Of a DNA stretch of 41,607 nt, positions 17,161-38,076 are shown in pieces. The stretch spans positions 1 to 41,607 of the forward strand of contig JAMFRN010000038.1 in assembly GCA_026224805.1 (NCBI GenBank). The letters are read 5' to 3'. A program made the position numbers and the translations under genes. Source of the stretch: Nevskia soli. GTDB taxonomy: Bacteria; Pseudomonadota; Gammaproteobacteria; Nevskiales; Nevskiaceae. The notes under the pieces were generated by a model. The model saw only the letters and a program-made list of their open reading frames with translations, was not told the DNA's origin and ran no database searches. The number at the start of each line of letters is the position of its first letter. Within the stretch, counting starts at the first letter, position 1.

Positions 17161-17234
17161 TGGGGGATCGTCTAATGGTAGGACAACAGTCTCTGACACT
17201 GTTTATCTAGGTTCGAGCCCTAGTCCCCCAGCCA
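17161..17234 (+). tRNA. tRNA-Gln (anticodon CUG)
   Basis: 74 nt with encoded CCA. The acceptor stem TGGGGGA pairs with TCCCCCA and the discriminator is G. The anticodon arm ACAGT-CTCTGAC-ACTGT places CTG at positions 34-36, reading CAG glutamine codons. The T arm contains GGTTCGAGCC. It is followed within about 15 nt by an intrinsic terminator. Confidence 0.96.
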
Positions 17235-17405: not shown

Positions 17406-18974
17406 TCAGGTATTGGCTTTTACGGTTGTGCGCCGATGTGCATCGATCATGTTGATGATCCGTCGTGAGGAGGTGATGGCGCTTTCCTGCCAGGTGCCGA
17501 CATGGCTCAGGTAGTCGCCGGCGAAATAGAACGGCCCGTCCGGCTCATTGAGCGCTGTGTATTCGGCGGTCTGCCCCGGCTTGTAGTGTGCTGACTCGCC
17601 GAGTGAATAGGGCACCTTCGACCAGGAGATGGCCATCGGCCGTGTCAACTCCTGTCCGTGGCCGGGATGCAGGCGCTCGACCACTTCGCGGGTCAGTTCG
17701 AACTGCTTCTGCAGCGGCTTGGCGGCCATCAGCGCGCCGTTGTCGCCGCTGGTATAGGAGCCCAGGATGATGCCCTGATCCGAAAACAGGCTGGCGCTTG
17801 GATACCACACCATGTTGGTGATGCCTTTCACCCAGGAGATGCCGCCGTAGATGTTGTAGTCCGCTTCCCAGAAGCGGCGTGACTGCCAGGCGACTTTCAC
17901 CGAGTTCTGCCAGTAGATGCCTGCGATTGCTTCCTTGTGCTGCGCCGAGAAATCGGAGGGGATCTTGGTGAGCACCGGCGAGGGTATCGTGGTGATGCAG
18001 TAAGCCGCGTCGATGACGTGTTTACCGCCTGACTTCTTGTCAAGGTAACTGATACGCGCGCTATTCTCCGAACGCCGGATTTCGAGCACCTCGCATTCGA
18101 GGCGCACCACCTTGCCAAGACGTTTGGCGAAGGCGTGCGGAATCTGGTCCATGCCGCCAACCGGCTGGAACATGGTTGCCTGCTGGTCGATCAGCTCTTC
18201 AAACAACACGCCGTTCCAGAGATCGGCGTCGAGCAGAACATCGAGCGATACGGGATCCCGCGGCACGCCGACCTGGTCGCCCGCTCCCGGGCGGACTTTG
18301 TAGCCGGAGCGCGATGAACCTTTGTAGAGCTTGTCCGGCGTCAGATCGCCGTATTGCTTGAGGAAGGCCAATACGCGTTCCTTGTCATGCGCGCCCAATT
18401 CCTGGTCCAGGGCGCCGCGGTCGATCGCCTTGCCGAGCAACTCGGAGATTTCCCCACGGATATCGTTGACGGCCTGGCGCAATTCGATCGGCTTGCCGTC
18501 GTTGGCGGCCGGGTTGGAGATCTCGGCGCTGCGGCTGGTATTGATTTCGACTTCGAGAGGTACGCCGAATTCGCGGCAGTAGCCAAGCACCGTGCGATGC
18601 AGGCTGGGCAGGCGTGCCGGACCTGCATTCCAGTACAGCCCTTCGTCGAATGCGCAGGTTTGCGAGCTGCCGTCCGTCATCTCCAGCCGGGTTCCCTTGC
18701 GCACCGTCCAATTGCGCCCGCCCACGCGATCGCGTGCCTCGAGGACGACGCAGTCGTAACCGGCTTTGCCGAGCTCGTAGGCCGCCGACAAACCGGCAAT
18801 GCCGGCACCGAGAATGACCACCTTGGTTCCGTGCTTGACCCCATGCTCAAGATCCAGGCTCTGCGCCGTGGCGGCTACGGGCAACTGGCCCAGCGCCTGC
18901 ATCGATACGTAGGTGGCGCGGTAGCCGCCGACGGCGGCAATGCCGCGCAGAAAATCACGTCGGGTCTGTGTCAT
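17406..18974 (-). CDS. Tat-exported FAD-dependent amine oxidase
   Basis: 522 residues from the ATG at 18974 (an ATG three codons upstream is possible). The N-terminus TQTRRDFLRGIAAVGG carries a twin-arginine motif, so the folded flavoprotein is probably exported to the periplasm. An FAD Rossmann motif VVILGAGIAGLSAAYELGKA lies near residues 50-70 with VLEARDRVGGR after it. The C-terminal segment GPFYFAGDYLSHVGTWQESAI is the flavin-contacting region of the monoamine / L-amino-acid oxidase family. It would oxidise an amine or amino acid to an imine, releasing ammonia and hydrogen peroxide. It is the last gene of the minus-strand sugar-acid operon, 67 nt after gntK. Confidence 0.88.
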   Translation of the reverse strand: MTQTRRDFLRGIAAVGGYRATYVSMQALGQLPVAATAQSLDLEHGVKHGTKVVILGAGIAGLSAAYELGKAGYDCVVLEARDRVGGRNWTVRKGTRLEMTDGSSQTCAFDEGLYWNAGPARLPSLHRTVLGYCREFGVPLEVEINTSRSAEISNPAANDGKPIELRQAVNDIRGEISELLGKAIDRGALDQELGAHDKERVLAFLKQYGDLTPDKLYKGSSRSGYKVRPGAGDQVGVPRDPVSLDVLLDADLWNGVLFEELIDQQATMFQPVGGMDQIPHAFAKRLGKVVRLECEVLEIRRSENSARISYLDKKSGGKHVIDAAYCITTIPSPVLTKIPSDFSAQHKEAIAGIYWQNSVKVAWQSRRFWEADYNIYGGISWVKGITNMVWYPSASLFSDQGIILGSYTSGDNGALMAAKPLQKQFELTREVVERLHPGHGQELTRPMAISWSKVPYSLGESAHYKPGQTAEYTALNEPDGPFYFAGDYLSHVGTWQESAITSSRRIINMIDAHRRTTVKANT

Positions 18975-19041
18975 GTTGTGCATCCGTTTCTGTGGGAATG
19001 GAGAGGAAAAAGTCGAAGCAAGGAATTCGCACGGCGTCGCC

Positions 19042-19581
19042 TCAGTTGCCTGCGGGGCGCTCGGGCTGCGCCTGCAGGCCGAGCAGAATGTCCCGCACCT
19101 GCTGCTCGACGCTGTGGCCGATATCGATAACGATGGCGGCTTCGTCGGGTGTCGGCGTTTCGAGCGTGGCGAGCTGGCTGTCGAGCAGGCTTGGCGACAT
19201 GAAATGGCCGGAACGCTGCTGCAGCCTCTGCGCCAGCAAAGCGCGATCGCCGTGCAGGTACACCAGGCGCAAATCGTTTTGCGCCCCGATCAGCTGCTGC
19301 CGATAGCGGTGCTTCAGCGCCGAGCAGGCGATTACGCCCTTGAGCTTCTGTACCTGCCACCGCTGGAGCATCTGCGCCACTGCCGCGAGCCACGGCGTAC
19401 GGTCGGCATCGTCGAGCTCCTCGCCACGAGCCATCTTGACGACATTGGCGGGCGGATGCAGGCTGTCGGCATCCTGAAAGTGCCAGCCAAGACGCTGCGC
19501 CACGGCGGCGCCGACGGTGGATTTGCCGCTGCCGGAAACACCCATGATCAGCAGCGCGGACGGAACATCGGCCTTGGACAT
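19042..19581 (-). CDS. gntK: Gluconokinase
   Basis: 179 residues. The Walker A motif GVSGSGKST lies near residues 15-23. The typical gluconokinase stretch DADSLHPPANVVKMARG follows, then LDDADRTPWL, VIACSALKHRYRQQL, and VYLHGDRALLAQRLQQRSGHFMS. It phosphorylates D-gluconate to 6-phosphogluconate, the entry to the Entner-Doudoroff or pentose phosphate route. The ATG at 19581 lacks a clear ribosome binding site and lies 22 nt after the previous stop, so coupling is likely. With idnO and idnD nearby it completes an L-idonate to 6-phosphogluconate path. Confidence 0.95.
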   Translation of the reverse strand: MSKADVPSALLIMGVSGSGKSTVGAAVAQRLGWHFQDADSLHPPANVVKMARGEELDDADRTPWLAAVAQMLQRWQVQKLKGVIACSALKHRYRQQLIGAQNDLRLVYLHGDRALLAQRLQQRSGHFMSPSLLDSQLATLETPTPDEAAIVIDIGHSVEQQVRDILLGLQAQPERPAGN

Positions 19582-19603
19582 GGCTGCGGAGCGTCCGCCG
19601 GCT

Positions 19604-20383
19604 TCAAGCGGATGGCGCGGCGGTGGCCGACTTCCAGGCTTCGTATTCGCGCAATACGGCCGCGCTCGGCGGATAAGTGCCTTCGATCGGTGCGCCAGCC
19701 TTGATGCGTTCGAGGATGTACTCCTCCAGCTTCTCCTGTTCGATGGCCAGATCGGCGATGTGCCCGGCAAGATGACGCGGAATGCAGACGGCGCCGTTGG
19801 CGTCGCCGACGATGATGTCGCCGGGGAATACCGCTACGCCGTTGAAGCCGATCGGCGTGTCCTGGTCGATGATCATGATCTGCGCGAACGACGATACCGG
19901 CGCCGAGCCAGCGCATACCACCGGAAACGGCATGGAGCTGATGAAATGCGCATCGGAAACGCCGGTATCCAGTACCGCGGCGGCGACGCCGCGCGTCATC
20001 AGCGAGGTGCTCATGATGTCGCCCATCAGGGCGACCTGCGGGTGGCAGCCGGTGCCGCAGACGACCACGGCCCCGGCCGGCGCGGCGTCGAAGGTGCGGC
20101 GATTGCGGCTGGGCATCTCGCCGCTGGCGATTGCGTTGCGCAAATCCTCGCGGATCGGAATCGCCCGGATGGTCCAGGCCGCGCCGCAGAACCTGGCGGC
20201 GTTGACATTGAGCGGCTTCACGCCGGGCAGGAAGCGCGTGTGGAAACCCTCCTTGAACAGCACCGCCGATAGGGTGGGCACGGCAACCGAAAGCAGTTTC
20301 TCCTTTAGTGCGCCCGGGATCGCGGCATAAGCGGCGGAGGCCAGGTCGCCAAGCGGCGGCAGGGAAGTATGGTCAGTGCCCAT
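19604..20383 (-). CDS. RraA-like / 4-hydroxy-4-methyl-2-oxoglutarate aldolase-like protein
   Basis: 259 residues, including the RraA fold core: LMGDIMSTSLMTRGVAAAVL, then LDTGVSDAHF and FPVVCAGSAPVSS, and PGDIIVGDANGAVCIPRHLA. Members that act as HMG/CHA aldolases bind divalent metal at the Asp and phosphate or carboxylate through an Arg in the DGxxRD motif. Here the segment reads DTGVSD, so the Arg is Ser (about residue 143) while the Asp (144) is kept. Activity may therefore differ from known aldolases. Possible roles are a retro-aldolase or decarboxylase on a keto-acid. It sits in the sugar-acid operon between an SDR and gntK. Confidence 0.82.
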   Translation of the reverse strand: MGTDHTSLPPLGDLASAAYAAIPGALKEKLLSVAVPTLSAVLFKEGFHTRFLPGVKPLNVNAARFCGAAWTIRAIPIREDLRNAIASGEMPSRNRRTFDAAPAGAVVVCGTGCHPQVALMGDIMSTSLMTRGVAAAVLDTGVSDAHFISSMPFPVVCAGSAPVSSFAQIMIIDQDTPIGFNGVAVFPGDIIVGDANGAVCIPRHLAGHIADLAIEQEKLEEYILERIKAGAPIEGTYPPSAAVLREYEAWKSATAAPSA

Positions 20384-20482
20384 TTTGTGTAATCCTCAGG
20401 AGAATCGTGCTGTGGAAAGATGCGCAGTACGCATTGTGTAAAGATCGGGTGCGGATATACGGTGCGGACCAGGATTCACGTT

Positions 20483-21241
20483 TCAGCCGCGGCCGATGTA
20501 CGGCATCTTGGTCGCCATCAGTGTCAGGAACTGCACATTGGTGTCGAGCGGCAGCCCGGCCATGTACACCACGGTGCGGGCGACGTGCTCGACGTCGATG
20601 GTCGGCTCGACCGCGGTTGCGCCGTTGGCCTGCTCGATGCCGATGAGCTGCTTGTCGACCATGCTGGTATGGGCGTTTCCGATATCGATCTGGCTGCAGG
20701 CGATGTCGTGCTTGCGGCCATCGAGCGCGCTGGACTTGGTCAGTCCGGTAATGGCGTGCTTGGCCGCGGTATAGGGTGCCGAATTCGGGCGCGGCGCATG
20801 TGCGGAGATCGAGCCATTGTTGATGATGCGGCCGCCTCGCGGTTGCTGGCTCTTCATCAGGCGAAAGGCCTGCTGGGTACAGAGAAATGCGCCGGTCAGG
20901 TTGACGTCGAGCACCGATCGCCACTGCTCGTAGCTGAGGTCTTCCAGCGCCACGCCCGGCACATTGAACCCGGCATTGTTGAATAACAGGTCGACACGCC
21001 CGTGGCGTTCGCGCACGGCATCGAACAGTTCGGCGACCGATGCCGGGTTGCAGACATCGGTGACCACCAGCTGGCACCGATCGGCATGCGCGCCGGCCGC
21101 GGCGACAGTGCCGGCGAGCGCGTCATGTCTGCGGCCGGCCAGTGCGACCGCATAGCCTTCGCGGAGCAGGGCGAGGGCGACGTGCCGGCCGATGCCGCTG
21201 CCGGCACCAGTGACGATTGCGCTGCGTGCAGATGTGCTCAT
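20483..21241 (-). CDS. Short-chain dehydrogenase/reductase, substrate unknown
   Basis: 252 residues with [12 protein letters not shown] (cofactor loop), NNAG, a Ser in NNGSISA and the catalytic YTAAK motif. All catalytic residues of a classical SDR are present, so it should be an active NAD(P)-dependent oxidoreductase. It lies between idnO (57 nt upstream) and the RraA-like gene (99 nt downstream) in a five-gene minus-strand operon. A role in oxidising or reducing a sugar-acid intermediate is inferred from this context. Confidence 0.88.
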
Positions 21242-21298
21242 CGAAATTCCGTTCGGTTGAAGGTGTCCGGCCGGCAGGCGCGCCGGCGCGAGCCTTGG

Positions 21299-22060
21299 TT
21301 AGACGACGCTGGTCAGGCCGCCGTCGACATAGAGAATCTGCCCGTTGACGAAATCGGCGGCGCGCGAGGCGAGGAACACACAGGCGCCGCCGAGTTCCTC
21401 CACTTTTCCCCAGCGGCCGGCCGGAGTGCGCTTGCACAGCCAGTTCGAGAAATCCGGGTTTTCGACCAGCGGCCGGGTCAGCTCGGTGACGAAGTATCCG
21501 GGAGCGAGCCCGTTGATCTGCAGGCCATGGGGAGCCCAGTCGGCGCACATGCCCTTGGTCAGCATCTTTACCGCGCCCTTGGTGGCCGCATAGGGAGCGA
21601 TGCCGGGACGTCCGAGTTCGCTCTGTACCGAGCAGATGTTGATGATCTTGCCGCGACGGCGCGAGATCATCCCTCGTGCCACGGCTTGTGAAACCAGGAA
21701 CACGCTATCGAGGTTGGTTTTCACCAGCCTGTGCCAGTCCGCTTGCGCAAAGTCCTCAAGCGGCGCCCGGTGCTGGATGCCGGCGCAGTTGACGAGGATA
21801 TCGATGGCCCCGATCTGCGCTTCGATGCCGGCAATGCCGGCTGTTACCTGAGTTGCGTCCGTCACATCGAATTCCGCCGCGTGCGCAGCATGACCCGCCG
21901 CGGCGAGCCGGTGAACGGCGATATCGAGCTTGGCGCGGCTGCGGCCATTGAGTATGACGCCTGCTCCGGCCGAGGCCAGGGCCCAGGCGAGTGCCAGGCC
22001 AATTCCCTGGCTGGACCCTGTAATCAGGGCCGTTTTGCGGCTTAGATCAAACAATTTCAA
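21299..22060 (-). CDS. idnO: 5-keto-D-gluconate 5-reductase (gluconate 5-dehydrogenase), IdnO type
   Basis: 253 residues if started at TTG 22060, which is preceded by AAGGTGAGGA at 5 nt and gives MKLFDLSRKTALITGSSQGI, aligning with the IdnO N-terminus. A GTG start a few codons upstream is a weaker option. Motifs: TGSSQGIG, VNCAG, YAATK. Specific IdnO-like stretches include GKIINICSVQSELGRPGI, APYAATKGAVKMLTKGMC, NGLAPGYFVTELTRPLVEN and WLCKRTPAGRWG. It converts 5-keto-D-gluconate to D-gluconate with NAD(P)H. It is the first gene of the minus-strand operon and divergent from the 2-hydroxyacid dehydrogenase gene. Confidence 0.92.
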   Translation of the reverse strand: MKLFDLSRKTALITGSSQGIGLALAWALASAGAGVILNGRSRAKLDIAVHRLAAAGHAAHAAEFDVTDATQVTAGIAGIEAQIGAIDILVNCAGIQHRAPLEDFAQADWHRLVKTNLDSVFLVSQAVARGMISRRRGKIINICSVQSELGRPGIAPYAATKGAVKMLTKGMCADWAPHGLQINGLAPGYFVTELTRPLVENPDFSNWLCKRTPAGRWGKVEELGGACVFLASRAADFVNGQILYVDGGLTSVV

Positions 22061-22120
22061 GAAAATCCTCACCTTAGGCGCCGAGCGGGTCCGAGGCTGG
22101 CCCCGGTTGAACTGAAGTCG

Positions 22121-22135
22121 TTCTATAATAACGAA
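22121..22135 (+). promoter_or_regulatory. Candidate operator TTC-N9-GAA overlapping a -10 box (divergent promoter)
   Basis: TTC-TATAATAAC-GAA. The TATAAT inside (22124-22129) is a perfect -10 hexamer about 30 nt before the 2-hydroxyacid dehydrogenase start. No good -35 is seen at 17 nt. The same pattern, TTC-TATAATANN-GAA, recurs before the TonB receptor at 25818. An operator for the nearby IclR regulator is the simplest explanation but is unproven. Confidence 0.5.
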
Positions 22136-22158
22136 TACTCTATCGCTATGAGGGAACG

Positions 22159-23100
22159 ATGCGCAAGCCTGAGGTTCTGTTGACGGGTACCTATATCGAG
22201 GAAGAGATGGCGATCCTGGAGCGCCAATTCGTCGTGCACCGTCTATGGGAAGCAAGCGATGCGCCAGAGTTCCTCGCGGAAGTCGGACCGCGTATTCGCG
22301 CCATTGCCACTCGCGGTGATCTTGGCGCCGATGCCGCGCTGATGCGCGAGCTGCCGAATCTGGAGATCGTGGTGTGTTTTGGTGTCGGCGTCGACGCAAT
22401 CGACCTGGAGCATGCGCGGGCGCGCGGCATCCGCGTCACCAATACTCCCGACGTACTGACCGCCGATGTCGCCGATATGGGCATGGCCTTGCTGCTGGCG
22501 ACCGCACGGCGCATTCCCGCCGGCGACCACCATGTGCGCAGCGGTGCCTGGATCCAGGCGCCGATGCCTTTGACCACTTCGATCAGCGGCAAGCATCTGG
22601 GCATTTTAGGACTCGGCCGCGTCGGCCAGGCGGTGGCGCGTCGCGCGGCCGGCTTCGACATGCGGGTGTCCTACTGCAATCCACGGCCGCGCCAGGGAAT
22701 TGCGCTGCCCTGGTATCCCGATGCGGTTTCGCTTGCCGCCGAAGTCGACTTCCTGATGGTCTGCGCCTCCGCCGACGCGAGCATGCGGGGCCTGGTCAAT
22801 GCACCGGTGCTCGACGCCCTGGGCCCCAAGGGTACGCTGATCAATATCGCGCGCGGTCTGATCGTCGACGAGGCGGCGCTGCTGCAGGCCTTGCGGACGC
22901 GGAGCATTGCCGCCGCCGGCCTCGACGTATTTCTCAACGAGCCGGGCATCGATCCGGCTTTCATCGAACTCGACAACGTGGTGCTGCAGCCGCACAACGC
23001 CAGCGGCACCGTCGAGACGCGCTCGGCCATCGGCCGCCTGATGCGCGAAAACCTCCTCGCCCATTTTTCCGGGCAGGATCTGCCCACTCCCGTGATCTGA
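22159..23100 (+). CDS. D-isomer-specific 2-hydroxyacid dehydrogenase (2-ketogluconate / glyoxylate reductase-like)
   Basis: 313 residues. The nucleotide fold motif GILGLGRVGQAVARRAAGFD lies near residues 149-168. The catalytic triad of the family is visible: Arg in INIARG, Glu in FLNEPGID, and His in LQPHNASGT. The protein is of the hydroxypyruvate/glyoxylate/2-ketogluconate reductase type. It would reduce a 2-keto acid, such as 2-ketogluconate, to the hydroxy acid with NAD(P)H. It precedes idnD by 20 nt and has its own -10/operator upstream, so the two form one operon divergent from idnO. Confidence 0.88.
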   Translation: MRKPEVLLTGTYIEEEMAILERQFVVHRLWEASDAPEFLAEVGPRIRAIATRGDLGADAALMRELPNLEIVVCFGVGVDAIDLEHARARGIRVTNTPDVLTADVADMGMALLLATARRIPAGDHHVRSGAWIQAPMPLTTSISGKHLGILGLGRVGQAVARRAAGFDMRVSYCNPRPRQGIALPWYPDAVSLAAEVDFLMVCASADASMRGLVNAPVLDALGPKGTLINIARGLIVDEAALLQALRTRSIAAAGLDVFLNEPGIDPAFIELDNVVLQPHNASGTVETRSAIGRLMRENLLAHFSGQDLPTPVI

Positions 23101-23120
23101 AGCCTGCCCAGGGATTTCCC

Positions 23121-24152
23121 ATGAAAGTCGCCATGATCCATGCCCCGTTCGATGTGCGGGTGGAAGAACAGGAAGTCCCGGCTCTTGGCCCGCAGGATGT
23201 CAGTGTGCGTGTGCATGCCGGCGGGATTTGCGGTTCGGATCTGCACTATTTTCAGCACGGGGGCTTTGGCACGGTGCGTCTGCGCGAGCCGATGATCCTG
23301 GGCCATGAGGTGGCTGGCGTGGTCGCGGCAGTCGGCGTTGCGGTGACTGCCGTGGCACCCGGCGACCACGTTGCCGTCAATCCCAGCCTGCCTTGTGCTC
23401 AGTGCCGGTATTGCCTAGAAGGCATGCCGAACCAGTGCCTCGACATGCGTTTCTACGGTAGCGCCATGCGCATGCCGCATGTGCAGGGCGCTTTTCGCGA
23501 AGTGCTGGTGTGCAAGGAGTCGCAGCTGGTCGTGGTGCCGAAAGACCTGCCCTTGAGCAGCGCCGCCTTCGCCGAGCCGCTGGCGGTGTGCCTGCATGCC
23601 GGCCGCCAGGCCGGGACGCTGCTGGGCAAGCGCGTACTGGTCAGCGGGGTCGGTCCGATTGGCGCGCTGGCGATTCTGACGGCTCGCCACGCCGGAGCCA
23701 GCGAGATCGTCGCGACGGATCTGCTGGCCGAGCCATTGGCGCTGGTCGCCCGCATTGGCGCCGATCGCACCATCAATCTGCGCGAGACGCCGGATGCGCT
23801 GCAGGCCTACAGCAAGGACAAAGGTTATTTCGACGTGGTGCTGGAAGCCAGCGGCAGCGCCGCCGGGCTGAACTCAGCAATCCAGGTGGTGCGTGCCGGC
23901 GGCACCATCGTGCAGATCGGCCTCGGCGGCGAGTTGAGCATCCCGGTCAACATGCTGGTATCCAAGGAAGTGTCCTTGCGCGGCAGCTTCCGCTTTCACC
24001 ACGAATTCGCCTGGGCGACGAATTTCATCGCCAGCGGTGCGATCGACGTGCGGCCGCTATTGACCGAGGTGATCCCGCTGGCCGAGGCCTCACGCGCCTT
24101 CGAGCTCGCGGGGGATCGCAGGCTTGCGATGAAGGTCCAGCTGGCCTTCTGA
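23121..24152 (+). CDS. idnD: L-idonate 5-dehydrogenase, IdnD type
   Basis: 343 residues, the same length as E. coli IdnD. This is a zinc-dependent medium-chain dehydrogenase: GGICGSDLHYFQHGGFG with the catalytic Cys, ILGHEVAG, and a structural zinc cluster CAQCRYCLEGMPNQC. The fingerprint NQCLDMRFYGSAMRMPHVQG with AFRE after it is IdnD-like, and VSGVGPIGALAILTARHAGA is the NAD(P) loop. It oxidises L-idonate to 5-keto-D-gluconate, the substrate of the IdnO-like enzyme encoded divergently. AGGGAT precedes the ATG. The gene converges on the iclR-type regulator. Confidence 0.92.
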   Translation: MKVAMIHAPFDVRVEEQEVPALGPQDVSVRVHAGGICGSDLHYFQHGGFGTVRLREPMILGHEVAGVVAAVGVAVTAVAPGDHVAVNPSLPCAQCRYCLEGMPNQCLDMRFYGSAMRMPHVQGAFREVLVCKESQLVVVPKDLPLSSAAFAEPLAVCLHAGRQAGTLLGKRVLVSGVGPIGALAILTARHAGASEIVATDLLAEPLALVARIGADRTINLRETPDALQAYSKDKGYFDVVLEASGSAAGLNSAIQVVRAGGTIVQIGLGGELSIPVNMLVSKEVSLRGSFRFHHEFAWATNFIASGAIDVRPLLTEVIPLAEASRAFELAGDRRLAMKVQLAF

Positions 24153-24171
24153 GATGGCATCGCGGCCGCGC

Positions 24172-24204
24172 GCAGTGTCCGCTAGGCGGGGCCGCGGACG
24201 CTGC
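24172..24204. terminator. Hairpin between convergent idnD and the IclR gene
   Basis: GCAGTGTCCGC (24172-24182) pairs with GCGGACGCTGC (24194-24204) with one mismatch and an 11-nt loop. It overlaps the end of the regulator gene. There is no T-run, so terminator function is tentative. Confidence 0.4.
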
Positions 24205-24994: not shown

Positions 24995-25008
24995 GTAGAA
25001 ACGTTCTC

Positions 25009-25817: not shown

Positions 25818-25832
25818 TTCTATAATACGGAA
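25818..25832 (+). promoter_or_regulatory. Candidate operator TTC-N9-GAA overlapping the TonB-receptor -10 box
   Basis: TTC-TATAATACG-GAA, with a perfect TATAAT at 25821-25826 and no good -35. It shares 13 of 15 positions with the site at 22121-22135. It lies about 90 nt before the receptor start. Confidence 0.5.
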
Positions 25833-25920
25833 CGATCACTCACTATTAAAGAAAAGCTTGACACTAAGAATAGTAGTTGCAAATATAAGGAACGGCTATT
25901 CACTCAAGCGGAATTATCAA

Positions 25921-28434: not shown

Positions 28435-28487
28435 GCAGGCCCCTTGCCGGTTTCGATATCCGCCATCTGATCGCCTGGAGAAAATGA

Positions 28488-29837: not shown

Positions 29838-29895
29838 TCGCGTCGAATCTTGCCTCCCTGCTGCCAACCGATTTTCTTCTGGAATCATTCGAACC

Positions 29896-30825: not shown

Positions 30826-31610
30826 TGGATCTCGGACTTGACGGCAAACAAGCGGTGGTACTGGGCGCCAGCCGCGGCCTTGGCGCTGCCGTCGCGCGCA
30901 CGCTGGCCAACGAAGGCGCAACGGTGATTGCCGCCGCGCGCGGTCTTGATACGATTGAGGCGTGGCGGCGTGAACTGGCTCCCGCAGCCGCCGCTCGCGT
31001 GGTACCGCTCGCGGTTGACATCGCCGACCGCGCCCAGGTCGAACATCTCGCCGCGTTTGCACAGCGGCGGGCGGTCACCGACATCCTCGTCAACAACAGC
31101 GGCGGTCCTCCCTCCGGCAGCGCGGCCGCCGCCAGCGCCGAGCAATGGATCGCCAACTTTCAGGCCATGGCGGTGAATCTGTTCCATCTCAGCGGCCTGC
31201 TGCTGCCGGCGATGCTGGAACGCGGCTGGGGCCGCATCATTACGATCGCCTCGTCCGGCGTCGAGCAGCCGATCCCGAATCTGGCGTTGTCCAATGGCAT
31301 TCGCGCTGCGGTGGTCGGCTGGTCGAAGACCCTGGCGGCCGAGGTTGCCGCCCGGGGCGTCACCGTCAACGTCGTGTTGCCCGGCCGCATCCATACCGAT
31401 CGCGTGGATCAGCTCGACCAGGCGGCGGCGCAAAAGCAGGGTCGGAGCCAGCAGGAAGTGGCGCAGGCCTCGGCGGGATCCATTCCCGCGGGTCGCTACG
31501 GCCGCCCTCAGGAATTTGCCGATGTGGTTGCGTTTTTGGCCAGCGAGCGTGCCTCCTACGTCACCGGATCGAGGATCCGGGTCGACGGCGGCATGATCCG
31601 CTCGATCTGA
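30825..31610 (+). CDS. SDR-family protein lacking the YxxxK catalytic motif
   Basis: 261 residues. The cofactor loop is LGASRGLGAAVART (residues 13-26), then NNSGGPPSGS and a catalytic-type Ser pair in TIASSGVEQP. At the position of YxxxK the sequence reads SNGIR (residues 156-160), so both Tyr and Lys are substituted. PGRIHTDRVDQLD and VTGSRIRVDGGM complete the fold. NAD(P) binding is likely but classical SDR catalysis is doubtful. A related uncharacterised group with an LSN-x-x-R pattern is familiar to me from proteobacteria. Its start is coupled to the DapA-like gene, and the binding-protein gene starts 7 nt after it. Confidence 0.82.
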   Translation: MDLGLDGKQAVVLGASRGLGAAVARTLANEGATVIAAARGLDTIEAWRRELAPAAAARVVPLAVDIADRAQVEHLAAFAQRRAVTDILVNNSGGPPSGSAAAASAEQWIANFQAMAVNLFHLSGLLLPAMLERGWGRIITIASSGVEQPIPNLALSNGIRAAVVGWSKTLAAEVAARGVTVNVVLPGRIHTDRVDQLDQAAAQKQGRSQQEVAQASAGSIPAGRYGRPQEFADVVAFLASERASYVTGSRIRVDGGMIRSI

Positions 31611-31617
31611 AGTCACC

Positions 31618-32451
31618 ATGACCAGAGCATGGCCAGCGAACTCCACCCTGCGCCCTGCACGTGCCCCCGGTCGTGCTCGAGGGTGGCGTTCTCTGCTGCC
31701 GTTGGTCATGAGCTCCCTGCTGTGTCTGCCGCTTGCGACCTGCGCGCAGGATCTTGAGCAGATCCGCCAGCGCGGCTACCTGCGCATCGGTACCTCCGGC
31801 ACCGCCCCGCCCAATACCTGGGTTAACTCCAAAAACGAGCTGATCGGCTACGACATCGACTGGGGCACCCGCATCGGCCAGGAGCTGAACCTGCCCGTGC
31901 GGTGGATCAAGACCGACTTCCGCGGCCTGATGCCGGCGCTGTCGTCAGGACAGCTCGATCTGGTCATTACCGGCGTGCGTATCCGTGAATCGATGAAGCA
32001 GGTCTTCCTGTTCTCGGAGCCCTACTCCTACGAGCGCATGGTCGCGGTGGTACGCAAGGATGACGTCGGCATGCAGCGCCTGGCCGACATCAGGGGGCGT
32101 TCGGTCGCCGTGGTCGCCGCATCCTTCCAGGAAGACACCATCAGGAACATGGGCGGCTACCGTGAGCTGTTATCGATGCCGAGTGGCAGCGATGTGTTCC
32201 TGTGCCTGCACACCCGGCACGCCGATGTCGCCGTGGTCGGTCTCACCGCGGCCGTACATTACGTCAAGGCCGGGCACGACGACATCCGCATCGTCAGCGA
32301 GGGAGGTGGTGTCAACCCGCAGGGCATCGTCATGCAGAAGACCGCGCATGAACTCAAGGCGGCGATCGACCGGCTGGTGGAGCGCAGCCGTGCAGATGGC
32401 AGCTATGTCGCGCTTTACCGCAAGAATTTCGGTTTCGACCCGCCGCAGTAG
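31618..32451 (+). CDS. Periplasmic amino-acid-type solute-binding protein (family 3)
   Basis: 277 residues. A signal peptide with the hydrophobic run LLPLVMSSLLCLPLATC, which could be a lipobox (LATC), precedes the mature domain. The SBP family-3 pattern follows: LRIGTSGTAPPNTWVN, GYDIDWGTRIGQEL, FRGLMPALSSGQLDLVITG and EPYSYERMVAVVRKDD. Such proteins bind amino acids, opines or related polar compounds and deliver them to a PAAT-type ABC transporter. The matching permease and ATPase lie 2.7 kb downstream, with two enzymes between. Confidence 0.9.
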   Translation: MTRAWPANSTLRPARAPGRARGWRSLLPLVMSSLLCLPLATCAQDLEQIRQRGYLRIGTSGTAPPNTWVNSKNELIGYDIDWGTRIGQELNLPVRWIKTDFRGLMPALSSGQLDLVITGVRIRESMKQVFLFSEPYSYERMVAVVRKDDVGMQRLADIRGRSVAVVAASFQEDTIRNMGGYRELLSMPSGSDVFLCLHTRHADVAVVGLTAAVHYVKAGHDDIRIVSEGGGVNPQGIVMQKTAHELKAAIDRLVERSRADGSYVALYRKNFGFDPPQ

Positions 32452-32574
32452 CGTGCGGAAGTACTGCCGCCATTCGCCATTACCATCATCCCGATCCGAC
32501 ATGTACCCAGCAGCACCGACAGATGCGCCGATGCTCCGCACCGCCACGCTGCAATGCCGATGGGTGCTGCGCCC

Positions 32575-33582
32575 ATGAGCGTGCTCGTCACCGGCGCCAA
32601 CGGCTTCGTCGGCCTCAATTTGCTGGAACGCCTGCTTGCGGCCGGGCGCGATGTGGTGAGTCTGTCACGCCGCCCGATCCCGGCGGCGGCGCATCCCGCG
32701 CTTGCCGGGCAGCCCGGAAGGCTGGTCGAGGTCCTTGGCGATGTCCGCGATACGTCAATGATCGAAAATACGCTGCGTGCGCAGGATGTTTCCGCTGTCG
32801 TCCACATGGCTGCGATCACTGCAGCGGCCGACCGTGAAAAGCGGGCAGCGGACGAGGTCATTTCCGTCAATCTCTGCGGCTTGGCCAGCGTCATGACCGC
32901 CTCGGCCAACGTTGGTGTATCGCGCTTCGTCTGCGCCGGCTCGATCGCCGTTTACGGCGGCGGGGTCGACGGCAGCCTGCTCGAAGAAGAAAGCCCGCAC
33001 GCGCCACGTTCGCTGTATGCGATCACCAAATCCGCCGGCGATGCCGTCGTCGCCCGGCTGGGGGAGCTGCACGGCCTCGATTGGGTGATTGGCCGCCTTG
33101 GCCGCGTCTTCGGGCCCTATGAGTACGATACCGGCGTGCGGGATACCATGAGCCAGATTTACCAGGTGACGCAGGCAGCCATCGCCGGCCGTGCCGTCGT
33201 TCTGGCGCGGCCCTGCATCAAGAACTGGAACTACTCGCGCGATGCGGCCGCCAACCTGCAGGCGCTGATAGACGCACCGCAACTGCGGCATCGTATCTAT
33301 AACCTCGGCTCGCCCTATGCATGGTCCTTGGCCGCGTGGTGCGAGAGTCTTGCGCGGCGCTATCCGGATTTTTCGTTCGGCATCGGTGGCGGCGACGGTG
33401 AATCGATCGATCTGGGCGGCGGCAGCGACGGTGGCCTGTTGTCATGGCAGCGTTTCGCCGCCGAGTTCGGCGCCACGGCGCAGTTCGACCGCGATGCGGC
33501 CTTCAACGACTATATGAATTTTATCGATCAAGAATCCGGAGATGTTGTTGCTGCTCCGGCATCCACGGCCGTGACGCGATAG
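32575..33582 (+). CDS. NAD-dependent epimerase/dehydratase-like protein
   Basis: 335 residues from the ATG at 32575 (ATGs at 32554 and 32560 are in frame; none has a strong ribosome binding site). An extended-SDR pattern is present: VLVTGANGFVGLNLLERLLA for NAD, GDVRD, VVHMAAITAA, and the catalytic SLYAITKSAGD (YxxxK intact). GRLGRVFGPYEYDTGVRDTM follows. It should oxidise/reduce or epimerise a sugar or sugar-acid substrate with bound NAD. It lies between the binding protein and a flavoprotein within the ABC-transporter cluster. Confidence 0.85.
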   Translation: MSVLVTGANGFVGLNLLERLLAAGRDVVSLSRRPIPAAAHPALAGQPGRLVEVLGDVRDTSMIENTLRAQDVSAVVHMAAITAAADREKRAADEVISVNLCGLASVMTASANVGVSRFVCAGSIAVYGGGVDGSLLEEESPHAPRSLYAITKSAGDAVVARLGELHGLDWVIGRLGRVFGPYEYDTGVRDTMSQIYQVTQAAIAGRAVVLARPCIKNWNYSRDAAANLQALIDAPQLRHRIYNLGSPYAWSLAAWCESLARRYPDFSFGIGGGDGESIDLGGGSDGGLLSWQRFAAEFGATAQFDRDAAFNDYMNFIDQESGDVVAAPASTAVTR

Positions 33583-33646
33583 CCATGTGGATCCATATGA
33601 ATCGTGATTTCTCTCCGGCAACCGCTTCAGCCATGGCGGTGTATCC

Positions 33647-35074
33647 ATGAAACCCAACAGCCTTGCGCAGCTGGAGCAGGATCTGGCGCGCGACCTGCAG
33701 CTGGTTGCCTATCCGGAAGCAGCATGGGTGCCGCCCCATCACCATAACGATACGCCGGTGCTCGATGTCCTGATCGTCGGCGGCGGCCAGGGTGGTCTGG
33801 CCGTTGCCGCCGGGTTGCTACACGAGCGCATCACCAACATTCTCGTCGTCGACGAGATGCCGCAGGGCGAGGAAGGGATCTGGACCCGCTATGCGCGCAT
33901 GCATACATTGCGTACGCCCAAGCATATCGGCGGCCCGGATCTGGGCCTGCCGAGTCTGAGTTTTCAGGCCTGGTTCGAGGCGCAACATGGCGCCGAAGCC
34001 TTCCAGGGCTTCAAGTATATCGCCAAGGAACAGTGGCAGGCTTATCTCGGCTGGTTTCGTCGCGTGCTGAATGTACCCGTCCAGAACAAGACCCGCTTCA
34101 CCGGCGTCCGTCCGCTGGGTGCCTATCTGCAAGCCACGGTGGTCAGCGGCGGCCTGGAGCGGCAGCTGTTGACCCGCAAACTGGTGTTGGCCGGCGGCAT
34201 CGAAACCAGCGGCTACTGGTGGATGCCGGACGAGATTGCCGCGCTGCCCGGAACACTGCGGGCGCATACCGAAGAGGCTATCGATTTCGATGCCCTTCGC
34301 GGCAAGCGCGTCGCGGTGATCGGTGCCGGCGCTTCGGCTTTCGACAACGCCGCCGTGGCACTGGAACACGGTGCTGCGCAGGTGCGGATGTTCTGCCGCC
34401 GCCGCGAACTGCAGCGCGTGCAGCCCTACAAAATCCTGGCTTATCCCGGCTTCCTGCGGCATTTCGGTTCGCTCGACGATGCAACGCGCTGGCGGACGAT
34501 GAATCACCTGCTGACCATCCGCGAAGCGTTGACCCGCGAAACCTGGGATCGGGTGACCCGCCACGCCAACGTCGAGATCATCACCGGTGCGCCGATCGAA
34601 GGCGCCAGGCTTGAGGGCAATGTTATACACCTGCATACACCGGGCGGCGACCATGCCGCCGACTTCGTGATTGCGGGCACTGGCTTCGAGATGAATCTTG
34701 CCTCGCGTCCCGAACTGGCCGGCGTTGCCGAACATGTCGCCAGTTGGGCCGATCGCTACGAACCGCCGCTCGAGGAGCGCAGCCGGCGTCTCGGCCGTTA
34801 CCCCTACCTCAATCCGGGCATGGCCTTCACCGAGAAAAACCCCGGCGCGGCGCCGTGGATCGGCGACATTCACTGTTACAATTTTGGTGCGACGTTGAGC
34901 TTTGGCCCCTCCGGTTCGTCGATCAGCGCTATGAAATTCGCGGTGCCGCGCCTGGTGCAGGCGATCGGGCGCGATCTGTTCCGGGCTGACTTCGCGATTC
35001 ACGAAAAGCAGATTAGCAGCTATGACACGCCGGAGTTTCCGCTGGTGTTCGCCCGTGATGCCGCGACGGTTTGA
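33647..35074 (+). CDS. FAD/NAD(P)-binding flavoprotein, monooxygenase-like
   Basis: 475 residues. The FAD site LIVGGGQGGLAVAAGLL lies near residues 42-58 and a second nucleotide-binding motif VAVIGAGASAFDNAAVALEH near 223-242. The arrangement is that of flavin-containing / lysine N6-hydroxylase-like monooxygenases. The region GIWTRYARMHTLRTPKHIGG resembles their substrate/NADPH side, and FVIAGTGFEMNLASRP is the ATGYxxD-type segment in modified form. It could hydroxylate or oxidise an amine or alcohol. I do not recognise a named member. It sits 64 nt after the epimerase gene and 36 nt before the ABC permease gene. Confidence 0.82.
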   Translation: MKPNSLAQLEQDLARDLQLVAYPEAAWVPPHHHNDTPVLDVLIVGGGQGGLAVAAGLLHERITNILVVDEMPQGEEGIWTRYARMHTLRTPKHIGGPDLGLPSLSFQAWFEAQHGAEAFQGFKYIAKEQWQAYLGWFRRVLNVPVQNKTRFTGVRPLGAYLQATVVSGGLERQLLTRKLVLAGGIETSGYWWMPDEIAALPGTLRAHTEEAIDFDALRGKRVAVIGAGASAFDNAAVALEHGAAQVRMFCRRRELQRVQPYKILAYPGFLRHFGSLDDATRWRTMNHLLTIREALTRETWDRVTRHANVEIITGAPIEGARLEGNVIHLHTPGGDHAADFVIAGTGFEMNLASRPELAGVAEHVASWADRYEPPLEERSRRLGRYPYLNPGMAFTEKNPGAAPWIGDIHCYNFGATLSFGPSGSSISAMKFAVPRLVQAIGRDLFRADFAIHEKQISSYDTPEFPLVFARDAATV

Positions 35075-35110
35075 AGTCCGAGCAATGGAATCTCCAGAGG
35101 AGCGCCGTGC

Positions 35111-35767
35111 ATGGATTTCCCCCTGATCTGGAATTACCTGCCGTATCTGCTGCACGCCGCGTTGGTGACGATCGGCATTTCCTTCGTCTCGCTGGTCATG
35201 GGCTCGCTGATTGGCCTGGCCTTTACCTTCATGCGGATATCCAGGAGCCGGCCGCTGCAGATCTTCGTCTGGGTCTACGTCTGGTTGATTCGCGGCACCC
35301 CGATGCTGCTGCAGATCTTCGCCATTTATTACTGGCTGCCGACCTACGGGATCATGCTGCCGGCCATTGTCGCCGGCGTCGTGGCGCTTTCGCTCAATTC
35401 AGCCGGCTATTACGTCGACATCTTCCGTGCGGCGATCACCGCGGTGCCGACCGGACAGATCGAAGCGGGGCAGGCGATCGGCATGCGGCCCTGGCAGGTC
35501 ATGTTCCGCATCGTCATCCCGCTATCGGTGCGCCCGGCGTTGCCACCTTACATCGGCCAGTCGATCAACCTGGTCAAGAACTCGTCGCTGGTCTCGGTGA
35601 TCTCGGTGCAGGAGTTGATGTTCACCAGTCAGTCGATTTACAGCTCGACTTACCGGGTGGCGGAAATTCTCGGCACGGCCGGCCTGATTTACCTGGCCAT
35701 CAATACGGTGCTGCAGGTATTGCAGACTTGGATGGAGAAGCGGCTCAGTTATTACACGGTTCGGTAA
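35111..35767 (+). CDS. Amino-acid-type ABC transporter permease (PAAT family)
   Basis: 218 residues with several hydrophobic segments and the conserved EAA loop ending GQAIGMRPWQVMFRIVIP. WLIRGTPMLLQIFAIYYWLP and NSAGYYVDIFRAAI are typical for HisM/GlnP-type permeases. An AGAGGAG ribosome binding site precedes the ATG. It forms a homodimeric channel or one half of a pair; only one permease gene is present, so a homodimer is likely. The ATPase follows after 25 nt and the matching binding protein is upstream in the same run. Confidence 0.93.
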   Translation: MDFPLIWNYLPYLLHAALVTIGISFVSLVMGSLIGLAFTFMRISRSRPLQIFVWVYVWLIRGTPMLLQIFAIYYWLPTYGIMLPAIVAGVVALSLNSAGYYVDIFRAAITAVPTGQIEAGQAIGMRPWQVMFRIVIPLSVRPALPPYIGQSINLVKNSSLVSVISVQELMFTSQSIYSSTYRVAEILGTAGLIYLAINTVLQVLQTWMEKRLSYYTVR

Positions 35768-35792
35768 GCGGTACGGCGATTGGAGCAGGGCA

Positions 35793-36533
35793 ATGACGGC
35801 GATTATCGAATTCGACCAGGTGAGCAAGTATTATGGCGATGTTCCGGTGCTGAAGAACATCAACCTGCGCGTCGACGAAGGCGATGTCGTCGGCGTGATC
35901 GGCCCATCCGGCGCCGGCAAGAGCACGTTGCTGCGTGTGGTCAATCAACTTGAGCAGCACCAGTCGGGCACCTTGCGCATTGCGGGTGAAACGGTCGAGG
36001 CCAAAGCCGGCAGCCGCGAGCTGGCGCTGCTGCGCGCAAAGGTCGGCATGGTCTTCCAGAACTTCAATCTCTGGCCGCACCTTTCGGTGCTCGACAACAT
36101 CATGACTGGACCGCGCTGCGTGCTCGGCTTACCGCGCCAGGAGGCCGAGACACGGGCTCTGGCCCTGCTTGAGCGCGTGGGGCTGAAGGCGTTTAGCGAT
36201 AAATATCCGGGGCAGTTGTCAGGCGGCCAGCAGCAGCGCGTGGCGATCGCCCGCGCATTGGCGATGAAGCCGCGTGTGATGTTGTTCGACGAAGCCACCT
36301 CGGCACTCGATCCGGCGCTGGTCGGCGAAGTGCTGGAGGTGATGACGCAACTGGCATTGGAGCGAATGACCATGCTGGTAGTGACGCACGAGATGCGCTT
36401 TGCGCGGCAGGTGGCGAATCGCATCGTGTTCATGGCGGGCGGTGAAATTCTCGAGGAAGGGCCGCCAGTGACTTTCTTTTCCGCACCGCAGCATCCGATC
36501 GCACGGAAGTTCGTGTCCAAGGTGCATGGCTAA
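35793..36533 (+). CDS. Amino-acid-type ABC transporter ATP-binding protein (GlnQ/HisP type)
   Basis: 246 residues with all ABC motifs: Walker A GPSGAGKST, Q-loop FQNFNLWPHL, signature LSGGQQQR, Walker B VMLFDEATSALDP, and the switch His in VVTHEMRF. It powers the permease encoded just upstream for import of an amino-acid-like solute. GGAGCAGGG precedes the ATG. The following amidase gene begins 43 nt after the stop, or overlaps by 8 nt if an upstream ATG is used. Confidence 0.96.
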   Translation: MTAIIEFDQVSKYYGDVPVLKNINLRVDEGDVVGVIGPSGAGKSTLLRVVNQLEQHQSGTLRIAGETVEAKAGSRELALLRAKVGMVFQNFNLWPHLSVLDNIMTGPRCVLGLPRQEAETRALALLERVGLKAFSDKYPGQLSGGQQQRVAIARALAMKPRVMLFDEATSALDPALVGEVLEVMTQLALERMTMLVVTHEMRFARQVANRIVFMAGGEILEEGPPVTFFSAPQHPIARKFVSKVHG

Positions 36534-36576
36534 TGCAGTCCGGACAAGTGATTGCCGTGCTGGAGGAAATCTGAAC

Positions 36577-38076
36577 GTGCTGCCGAAGATCCTGCCCAAC
36601 ATACTGGACATCGAAACCCTGCAGGCGCTGTATCGCGACGGCAGCCTGACGCCGCTGCAAGTGGTGGACGCAGTGCTGGATCGCATCGCTGCCAGCAGCG
36701 ATGGCGCTGTCTGGATCAGCCGCGTCGCCGACGAGGCGCTGCGCGCCGCCGCGCGCGAATTGATGGCAGGTGGCGGTCCCCGCGAGTCGCAGCCCCTGTG
36801 GGGCGTGCCGTTCGCAGTGAAGGACAACATCGATTGCGCCGGCCTGGACACCACCGCCGCCTGCCCCGCCTACGCCTACCATCCCGAGCGCGATGCCCCG
36901 GTGGTGGCGCGCCTGCGCGCCGCCGGCGCCCTGCTGGTGGGCAAGACCAACCTGGACCAGTTTGCCACCGGCCTCAACGGTACCCGCTCCCCCTACGGCG
37001 CGCCGCGCTGCGTGTTCGATCCCCGCTACATCTCCGGTGGCTCCAGCTCCGGCTCCGCCGTCGCCGTGGCCTCCGGCCTGGTGGCCTTTGCCCTGGGCAC
37101 CGACACCGCCGGCTCCGGGCGCGTGCCGGCGGCGTTCAATAACCTTGTCGGCATCAAGCCCACCCGCGGCCTGCTCCCCGCCAGCGGCGTAGTCCCCGCC
37201 TGCCGCAGCCTGGACTGCGTCAGCGTGCTGGCTACCACCGTTGGGGATGCCGACCGGGTGCGGCGCCTGGCCCAGGGCTTCGACGCCGACGATCCCTACT
37301 CGCGCCTGGGCCAGCAGCGCAGCTTGCCCAAAACCGGCTTCCGCTTCGGTGTGCTGGCACCGGCGCAGCGGGAGTTCTTCGGCGATACCCGGGCCGCACA
37401 GCTCTACCAGCAGGCCGCGGAGCGGCTGGCCGCTCTTGGCGGGGAGCCGGTGGCTTTCGATTTCTCGCCCTTCAGCGAAGCCGCTGCCTTGCTCTACTCC
37501 GGCCCCTGGGTGGCGGAACGGCTGGAACCTCTGCGCGGCTTCATCCAGGACCACGCCGAGGTGATGGATCCGAGCGTGAGGGCCATCATCGGCGGCGCCC
37601 GCGGCATTGACGCGGCCCAGGTGTTTTCCGGCCTGTACCGCCTGCAGGCCTTGCGTCACCGCGTCGATGCCGAGTGGGCGCGCCTGGAGCTGCTATTGCT
37701 GCCCACCGCGCCGACGATCTATACCGTGGAGCAGATGCTGGCCGATCCACTGGCCCTCAATAGCCGGCTCGGTTACTACACCAACTTCGTCAATCTGCTG
37801 GATTGCTGTGCGGTGGCCGTGCCCGCCGGCTTTGGTGACAATGGCCTGCCTTTCGGCGTCTCCCTGATCGCACCGGCCTTCACCGACGACGCGCTGTCGA
37901 ACCTGGCCGCAGCCCTGCATCACGCCGGCGCCGGTGGCCTGGGCGCCGACCGCGGCGCCGCCATTCCACCGCCCGTAACACCGTTAGCACGTCCGGCGCC
38001 GGCGGACGAGGTGGTCATCGGTGTGGCTGGTGGCGGTAAAGCCGGACAGGGCTACGGATTTGTTCGACTTGGATAA
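36577..38076 (+). CDS. Allophanate-hydrolase-like amidase, C-terminally short
   Basis: 499 residues from GTG 36577, which has GGAGG about 10 nt upstream; an ATG at 36526 overlapping the ATPase gene is the alternative. The amidase-signature triad is visible: Lys in GVPFAVKDNIDCAG, the cis-Ser region ISGGSSSGSAVAVASG, and the nucleophile Ser in TDTAGSGRVPAAF. NNLVGIKPTRGLLPASGVVP and TVGDADRV fit AtzF-type allophanate hydrolases. Those proteins are about 600 residues with a C-terminal decarboxylase-type domain; here the sequence stops soon after the linker (DEVVIGVAGGGKAGQ), so that domain is absent. The protein may retain amidohydrolysis of a carbamoyl or amide group. Confidence 0.83.
   Translation: MLPKILPNILDIETLQALYRDGSLTPLQVVDAVLDRIAASSDGAVWISRVADEALRAAARELMAGGGPRESQPLWGVPFAVKDNIDCAGLDTTAACPAYAYHPERDAPVVARLRAAGALLVGKTNLDQFATGLNGTRSPYGAPRCVFDPRYISGGSSSGSAVAVASGLVAFALGTDTAGSGRVPAAFNNLVGIKPTRGLLPASGVVPACRSLDCVSVLATTVGDADRVRRLAQGFDADDPYSRLGQQRSLPKTGFRFGVLAPAQREFFGDTRAAQLYQQAAERLAALGGEPVAFDFSPFSEAAALLYSGPWVAERLEPLRGFIQDHAEVMDPSVRAIIGGARGIDAAQVFSGLYRLQALRHRVDAEWARLELLLLPTAPTIYTVEQMLADPLALNSRLGYYTNFVNLLDCCAVAVPAGFGDNGLPFGVSLIAPAFTDDALSNLAAALHHAGAGGLGADRGAAIPPPVTPLARPAPADEVVIGVAGGGKAGQGYGFVRLG

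Follow-up and report, generated by a model that had tools for sequence, protein, structure and literature searches.

Among the described systems closest to the genes reported here is the ert gene cluster of ergothioneine breakdown, whose enzymes, as named in NCBIfam, are an ammonia-lyase-type ergothionase, a thiourocanate hydratase, a thiohydantoin desulfurase, ErtD (hydantoin-5-propionate amidohydrolase), and ErtE (N-carbamoyl-glutamate amidohydrolase). According to PMC13405746, few bacteria, among which is a Burkholderia sp., have had an ergothionase definitively identified; a bacterial ergothioneine sulfonate pathway is among its references. The stretch of DNA analyzed here (the window) is an entire contig of Nevskia soli (JAMFRN010000038.1; 41,607 bases, the contig end being the window end) from a genome assembly (GCA_026224805.1) of 3.95 Mb in 267 contigs with a completeness of 84%. 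Because ergothionase, thiourocanate hydratase, desulfurase, and ErtE were not found in this genome, the right half of the region (25918-38076) is best read as hydantoin-type catabolism in a partial, variant form, served by an enzyme of the ErtD clade (AmHyd) and with a putative substrate of that type. It is rather likely that the region consists of two separate catabolic units, one for L-idonate, ketogluconate, and gluconate on the left and one for a hydantoin-type compound on the right, located on a probably acquired segment beside a tRNA-Gln gene.

Gene families were assigned by comparing the open frames of the window with Pfam and NCBIfam profiles. By this check, every gene in an earlier list made from the letters alone (the original prediction) was an open frame of the family proposed, at or near its predicted position. 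Nearly all coordinates stood; the permease frame was refined to 35111-35767 and that of the first of two TauD-family dioxygenases to 38380-39198. The genes of the right half and the adjacent regulator are as follows.

24182-24994, minus strand: IclR-type regulator, divergent from the right-half run (family profile match)
25918-28434, plus strand: TonB-dependent receptor, opening the right-half run (family profile match)
28488-29837, plus strand: AmHyd, ErtD-type cyclic amidohydrolase (NF058538, 651.9 bits, cut-off 600)
29899-30825, plus strand: DapA-family lyase/dehydratase (Lys167 and Gln138 invariant in 82 homologues compared)
30825-31610, plus strand: SDR2, a short-chain dehydrogenase (SDR) with Asn157/Arg160 at the usual Tyr/Lys region (both residues invariant in 47 homologues)
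31618-32451, plus strand: periplasmic binding protein of a polar-amino-acid-type ATP-binding cassette (ABC) importer (SBP_bac_3)
32554-33582, plus strand: NAD-dependent epimerase/dehydratase-like protein (family profile match)
33647-35074, plus strand: FAD/NAD(P)H flavoprotein, monooxygenase-like (Pyr_redox_3)
35111-35767, plus strand: ABC importer permease (family profile match)
35793-36533, plus strand: ABC importer ATPase (50-52% identical to the ATPase of ten Bosea/Microvirga-type loci)
36526-38076, plus strand: amidase of the allophanate-hydrolase type, without the C-terminal domain (TIGR02713, 605.7 bits, cut-off 511.05)

The run is co-directional from the TonB receptor through the amidase. 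Its genes are at most 102 bases apart where they do not overlap (by 1 and 8 bases) and may be transcribed as an operon, for which the divergent IclR-type protein is a candidate regulator. A scan of the gap between the IclR and TonB receptor genes gave two minus-strand promoter-like sites (shuffles 0.6, standard deviation 0.8) and one terminator-like site (shuffles 1.1). The amide-opening enzyme set with its own transport that had been proposed for the region is supported by this run, which contains an ErtD-type amidohydrolase, an amidase, an ABC importer, and a TonB receptor.

AmHyd passes the curated cut-off of NF058538, the NCBI model for the ErtD of ergothioneine breakdown, as do proteins in 7 of 398 genomes of the phylum (source genome counted). 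With NF058539, the other ErtD model, it falls short of the cut-off (356.9 versus 650 bits), and it scored 265.1 bits with the allantoinase model (cut-off 357.85) and 183.5 bits with the dihydropyrimidinase model (cut-off 393.25). In a tree of 66 rows, the 14-row clade that holds AmHyd (100/100) otherwise consists of ten proteins of Bosea/Microvirga type and three from Burkholderia/Paraburkholderia plasmids. The homologue in Burkholderia arboris (locus L159) is 64% identical to AmHyd and scored 693.6 bits with the ErtD model (cut-off 600). Its neighbors, identified with hidden Markov models (HMM), are a thiourocanate hydratase (1050 bits, cut-off 930), a desulfurase (608.3, cut-off 440), ErtE (650.2, cut-off 520), and an ammonia-lyase-type protein that, at 252.8 bits, lies well under the HutH cut-off of 539; this locus is a complete ergothioneine-type set. 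In Burkholderia ambifaria (L158), the AmHyd-clade protein is accompanied by HutH over its cut-off, a TRZ/ATZ-type aminohydrolase, a urocanase-like protein under the thiourocanate hydratase cut-off, and ErtE. The neighboring enzymes of these two loci thus tie the AmHyd clade to the breakdown of histidine-like rings. The combination of HutH, urocanase-like protein, TRZ/ATZ-type aminohydrolase, ErtD, and ErtE was observed in both L158 and L160 (Burkholderia and Paraburkholderia plasmids; HMM-checked in L158 only), and these clusters perhaps encode a pathway for a 2-amino-substituted histidine analogue in which deamination replaces desulfuration. Also observed, in 8 of 8 aligned ErtD-type members, was a Gln (Q61 in AmHyd) at what we take to be the first His of the HxH metal motif.

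The six other phylum genomes over the NF058538 cut-off (L034-L039) were searched by tblastn with queries from L038 and Microvirga. At an identity of at least 50%, the lyase was found in 4 of 6 and the hydratase, the desulfurase, and ErtE in 5 of 6 each. In L038 itself, the thiohydantoin desulfurase scored 603.8 bits (cut-off 440) and the thiourocanate hydratase 1054.7 bits (cut-off 930); an ammonia-lyase-type protein under the HutH cut-off and, by tblastn, an ErtE homologue were also present.

The genes for the DapA-like lyase and SDR2, which follow that for AmHyd, belong to a recurring association. A two-sequence DapA alignment was scanned against one genome per species (84,980 species), and the best 80 of 134 relatives were examined in their loci, 60 of which are at least 18 kb long. 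SDR2 was directly adjacent to the DapA homologue in 43 of these 80 loci, a hydantoin-racemase homologue lay less than 2 kb upstream in 54, and an amidohydrolase of any of three types was present in 60. The module recurs in three settings: with ErtD-type enzymes, with a dihydropyrimidinase (HMM-checked in L061), and with a TRZ/ATZ hydrolase (HMM-checked in L103) plus a dipeptide-type ABC importer. A rhizobial-type ErtD relative, ErtE, DapA, and SDR2 all occur in one locus of Mesorhizobium (L092). A literature search, covering titles and the beginnings of abstracts, returned no description of the right-half gene set or of the DapA/SDR2 association; within that coverage, the original prediction that no described pathway has this set held for the right half.

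Ten Bosea/Microvirga-type loci (L048, L049, L051, L052, L055-L058, L062, and L161; nine from the DapA scan and one plasmid) were compared with the window by tblastn. The importer ATPase and binding protein, an ErtD-like enzyme, ErtE, a flavin reductase, the racemase, and DapA were found in all ten, the desulfurase and a GlcD-type oxidase in nine, a LysR-type protein and SDR2 in eight, and a lyase or hydratase in none of the ten; the desulfurase, ErtD, and ErtE were confirmed by HMM in L051 and L062 only. The window shares with these loci AmHyd (63-65% identical), DapA (64-67%), SDR2 (65-68%), the ATPase (50-52%), and the DapA-SDR2 adjacency wherever SDR2 is present. It differs in lacking the desulfurase and ErtE and in having the TonB receptor, epimerase, flavoprotein, amidase, and IclR-type genes. 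A homologue of PatB-type C-S lyase was found in 7 of 11 Devosia/Martelella/Neorhizobium-type loci (HMM-checked in L111: TIGR04350, 370.4 bits, cut-off 340), a neighbor that hints at sulfur compounds. Clusters with ErtD-like and DapA genes, a homologue of PatB-type C-S lyase, and a conserved protein of ~289 amino acids were observed in L040, L093, L111, L114, L117, L123, and L124; the latter protein appears sulfurtransferase-like by eye and had no NCBIfam match at E ≤ 1e-30.

Lys167 of the DapA-like protein is conserved in 82 of 82 relatives, as expected of a Schiff-base lyase, and Gln138 replaces the usual Tyr in 82 of 82, the Lys and Tyr positions being those presumed to be catalytic. The nearest solved structure is 3dz1, named just dihydrodipicolinate synthase, followed by L-2-keto-3-deoxyarabonate dehydratases. 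For SDR2, 47 homologues passed a filter of 48% identity and 85% cover out of 85 loci searched. In all 47, Asn157 occupies the usual Tyr site and Arg160 is invariant, and the Lys site (Ala161 in the window) is Ala, Ser, Gly, or Leu, given the YxxxK positions that we assume. The description of this protein as a degenerate SDR was therefore borne out, in that the usual Tyr/Lys pair is missing and Asn157/Arg160 are conserved. Its nearest solved structures, 2z1n and 5vps, both show Ser-Asn-x-x-Arg in their alignments with SDR2 and carry only generic dehydrogenase names; SDR2 looks like a member of an SDR subfamily with solved structures, for which no function was seen. We tentatively suggest, as a possibility short of probable, that hydantoin/2-thiohydantoin catabolism in Proteobacteria has an undescribed branch made up of AmHyd, DapA, SDR2, and, in loci that have it, the racemase. 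In this branch, a class I (DapA-type) lyase with Gln for Tyr and an SDR devoid of Tyr/Lys would act on the ring-opened or side-chain product, and the lyase/hydratase front end of ergothioneine breakdown would be bypassed.

In the route proposed for the right half, uptake of a hydantoin-type compound would fall to the TonB receptor together with the ABC importer of polar-amino-acid type, and AmHyd would open the five-membered ring to yield an N-carbamoyl amino acid; hydantoin-5-propionate would give N-carbamoyl-glutamate. The truncated amidase is the best candidate for removal of the carbamoyl group as CO2 and ammonia in place of ErtE, and the release of ammonia that had been anticipated for the region is plausible. 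The DapA-family enzyme, SDR2, and possibly the flavoprotein and epimerase may act on the side chain or carbon skeleton.

The amidase exceeds the cut-offs of both allophanate-hydrolase models and covers positions 2-445 of the 563 in the TIGR02713 profile, the C-terminal domain being absent. What it shares with the urea carboxylase/allophanate hydrolase pathway is an amidase domain 63-66% identical to rhizobial atzF among the matches listed; it differs in the absent domain and in that no urea carboxylase was found on the contig as read. Elsewhere in the genome, on contig C19, a urea carboxylase gene adjoins an allophanate-hydrolase-like frame of 666 amino acids that is 51% identical to the window amidase, which is thus a second homologue. 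A housekeeping allophanate hydrolase role was considered unlikely for the window amidase on these grounds, and it would most simply serve the right-half operon by carbamoyl removal.

With the ert cluster (as in L038 and L159), the window shares the ErtD-type enzyme over cut-off; the other four enzymes were found neither in the window contig nor, at the sensitivity used, in the genome, and the window instead has DapA, SDR2, the TonB receptor, flavoprotein, epimerase, and allophanate-hydrolase-type amidase. An ErtD label over cut-off alone need not mean use of ergothioneine, since the other steps were not found in the source genome. The full ergothioneine pathway was rejected for this organism on the same searches, made in a genome that is 84% complete.

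Several results weigh against hydantoin-type catabolism by an ErtD-type route. In the genome, the thiourocanate hydratase model gave no match at E ≤ 0.001, not even urocanase (the same search gave matches in 5 of 14 control genomes), and thiohydantoin desulfurase gave no match. The best score for ErtE was 36.2 bits against a cut-off of 520, and that for ergothionase, with the L038 lyase as the one query, was 26.6 bits (25% identity over 195 residues). Nothing found in the genome would make hydantoin-5-propionate, which must therefore be imported, or the substrate differs. Conversion of N-carbamoyl-glutamate to glutamate requires neither DapA nor SDR2. AmHyd scored 652 bits, compared with 776-789 in the six other over-cut-off genomes of the 398, and DapA was found beside none of their six ErtD genes, an SDR of 31% identity being found in two by tblastn. 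The window also has no counterpart of three enzymes encoded in the Bosea/Microvirga-type loci, namely the racemase, the flavin reductase, and the GlcD-type oxidase. As to the association itself, 12 of the 80 DapA loci had no SDR2, racemase, or amidohydrolase partner, one DapA relative (in L047) has an IlvD/Edd-type dehydratase for a neighbor, as judged by eye, and the 80 loci are non-independent (three contigs come from one Bosea thiooxidans strain), 20 of them being shorter than 18 kb. Finally, the window amidase was closest, among the plasmid matches listed, to atzF beside urea carboxylase (63-66%, 12 rows), which favours allophanate as its substrate.

This last result also underlies a second explanation, which we regard as unlikely, namely that the right half degrades a cyclic ureide other than hydantoin-5-propionate, ring opening and oxidation by the flavoprotein yielding allophanate that the amidase would convert to ammonia and CO2. 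The amidase scores over both cut-offs and its likeness to atzF fit such a route, and the occurrence of DapA, racemase, and SDR2 relatives beside dihydropyrimidinase or TRZ/ATZ hydrolases indicates that the module is not bound to one ring. The AmHyd clade, however, neighbors ErtE and mostly desulfurase, and no chemistry is known to us that yields allophanate from a simple 5-substituted hydantoin. A third explanation, that of a remnant or scavenger in which a reduced cluster of ergothioneine type only uses a pathway intermediate released by other bacteria, appears improbable for the right half. It is consistent with a genome in which no tested ergothioneine-specific step was found, and the pairing of a TonB receptor with an ABC importer would be apt for taking up an intermediate that leaks out and is scarce, but the genes of the right half are all open frames in close succession, the flavoprotein, epimerase, and amidase are gains rather than losses, and the genome is just 84% complete. 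We retain hydantoin-type catabolism as the best reading of the right half.

The flavoprotein was considered as a key to function and was not decisive, the five annotated plasmid neighborhoods of its relatives disagreeing with one another. It had no PDB sequence match at E ≤ 0.001, and relatives at E ≤ 1e-40 were found in 2 of 273 other genomes of the class. A homologue (37% identical) shares locus L121, 1 of the 80 DapA loci, with AmHyd, DapA, and SDR2. The annotation of a Sulfitobacter alexandrii plasmid (L234) places a carbon-nitrogen hydrolase and an FAD oxidoreductase after an amidohydrolase-racemase-DapA-SDR series, and these two echo the amidase and flavoprotein of the window. Downstream of the amidase are two further genes.

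38380-39198, plus strand: TauD-family dioxygenase 1, of uncertain membership in the run (303 bases past the amidase)
39221-40075, plus strand: TauD-family dioxygenase 2 (family profile match)

A scan for promoters and terminators in the 303 bases between the amidase and the first dioxygenase gave no site. Assignment of the pair as taurine dioxygenases was rejected, both scores (268.9 and 174 bits) being under the PRK09553 cut-off of 313. The pair (38380-40075) is possibly on the same acquired segment.

The left boundary of the segment was located by comparison with other genomes of the genus.

17161-17234, plus strand: tRNA-Gln (CTG anticodon), where synteny with congeners stops

PilU was found at E ≤ 1e-120 in 16 of 18 genomes of the genus (source genome counted). 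The stretch downstream of PilU was taken from 12 of the other 15 genomes with PilU, and the sequence beyond the tRNA was compared in 10. PilU and the same tRNA-Gln are kept in 12 of 12 congener loci, with ~2.1-2.6 kb separating the tRNA from the start of PilU. At the DNA level, the similarity of these loci to the window stops at the 3' end of the tRNA. Past that point, blastn (E ≤ 1e-10, >200 bases) detected no DNA common to the window and any of the 10 congeners compared, one of which (L154) gave a weak tblastx match. Three of the 10 have such stretches in common with one another, and the other 7 have none. The site past tRNA-Gln is a tRNA-linked variable site, and across the genus the 3' side of this tRNA resembles a hotspot for variable segments. 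Since both halves lie just past the point where congener synteny stops, the segment that carries them was probably acquired, and the synteny break supports the suspected island in so far as the region is apparently acquired. Of 85 genomes from the order, the source genome alone gave a match to the DapA-like gene at E ≤ 1e-60. Within the window, no second copy of the tRNA end was found that could mark an attachment site, the far side of the segment lying beyond the contig end, and no integrase was noticed in the window, though no model-based integrase search was made. On the other side of the tRNA, three PilT/PilU-like genes (12603-15980, named by eye) lie in the left part of the contig, and an open frame at 2174-3421 appears by eye to combine an acetyltransferase-like N-terminus with a lytic-transglycosylase-like domain. 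The PF19328 profile gave no match anywhere, control genomes included, and was uninformative.

The left half (17406-24152) contains the following genes.

17406-18983, minus strand: flavin amine oxidase (PF01593) with a twin-arginine translocation (Tat)-like signal (by eye), found with neither half in other loci
19042-19584, minus strand: gluconokinase of GntK/IdnK type, start uncertain (TIGR01313, 173 bits, cut-off 113.75)
19604-20383, minus strand: RraA-like protein (PF03737; NF006093, 217.3 bits, cut-off 208)
20483-21241, minus strand: SDR1 (short-chain dehydrogenase family match)
21299-22087, minus strand: IdnO-like 5-ketogluconate reductase, start uncertain (348.2 bits, below the equivalog cut-off of 408)
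22159-23100, plus strand: D-2-hydroxyacid dehydrogenase (2HADH), divergent from IdnO (family profile match)
23121-24152, plus strand: IdnD-like L-idonate 5-dehydrogenase (368.4 bits, below the equivalog cut-off of 469)

Judged by its gene families, this half is mostly an ordinary sugar-acid (L-idonate/gluconate) set, in which IdnD, IdnO, and GntK would route L-idonate, ketogluconate, and gluconate to 6-phosphogluconate. The predicted L-idonate/gluconate assignment stood in that GntK is over its cut-off and the gene set recurs; it is weakened by IdnD and IdnO, which are under their equivalog cut-offs. IdnD homologues at E ≤ 1e-100 were found in 31 of 398 phylum genomes (source genome counted), and, of the 30 besides the source genome, 20 were examined over ~20 kb around the homologue (11.5 kb in one), with thresholds of 35% identity and 70% cover. 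The partners in these 20 loci were IdnO (19), 2HADH (8), GntK (4), and SDR1 (2; SDR1 homologue 51%), and neither RraA nor the amine oxidase recurred. These two were also set aside as guides to function, the plasmid neighborhoods of their relatives (three for RraA, one for the amine oxidase) holding other gene sets. The order 2HADH-IdnD-IdnO-GntK was found on Neorhizobium and Shinella plasmids (L178 and L179), whose idonate operon shares these four genes with the window at 45-64% identity, along with an SDR1 homologue 61% identical in L178. The window differs in that IdnO, SDR1, RraA, and GntK are divergent from 2HADH and IdnD, and in that no sugar transporter was noticed beside the set.

In the 20 IdnD loci, a control unmatched in taxonomy to the DapA loci, there were no amidohydrolases of the three types tested (dihydropyrimidinase and TRZ/ATZ hydrolase among them), no SDR2 (at least 45% identity), no racemases, and no AmHyd or flavoprotein match at E ≤ 1e-15; one locus holds a DapA-like protein of 31% identity. 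Amidohydrolase, DapA, and SDR2 recurred together among the 80 DapA loci, and IdnD/IdnO at 50% identity or more stood nearby in only 2 of the 80 (L083 and L099, both Pseudorhodobacter). A single pathway, in which the right half frees a sugar acid from a nitrogen-containing or amide-linked compound and the left half burns it, is therefore highly improbable, for although the halves are adjacent on one variable segment, the two Pseudorhodobacter loci have IdnD/IdnO within ~5 kb of the DapA homologue (with GntK in one), and the next PDB relatives of DapA after 3dz1 are L-2-keto-3-deoxyarabonate dehydratases, IdnD at 50% identity or more is missing from 78 of the 80 DapA loci, both Pseudorhodobacter loci are without an ErtD-type amidohydrolase, and the closest AmHyd relatives neighbor histidine/ergothioneine-type enzymes. 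The one-pathway claim of the original prediction is thus rejected on co-occurrence, its stated refuting condition, that the two halves never occur together in other genomes, being largely borne out, and its amide-linked sugar-acid substrate gives way to catabolism of a hydantoin (histidine/ergothioneine-type ring) as the better explanation of the right half.

The set that recurs, apparently undescribed, comprises a hydantoinase-type hydrolase, a racemase, a DapA-like lyase, and a catalytically altered SDR, and is found with ErtE in ten loci and with the desulfurase as well in nine. Knowing its substrate would add to the understanding of bacterial growth on ring compounds derived from histidine, ergothioneine being one, and should aid in assigning a function to a conserved SDR subfamily that is devoid of the usual catalytic residues.

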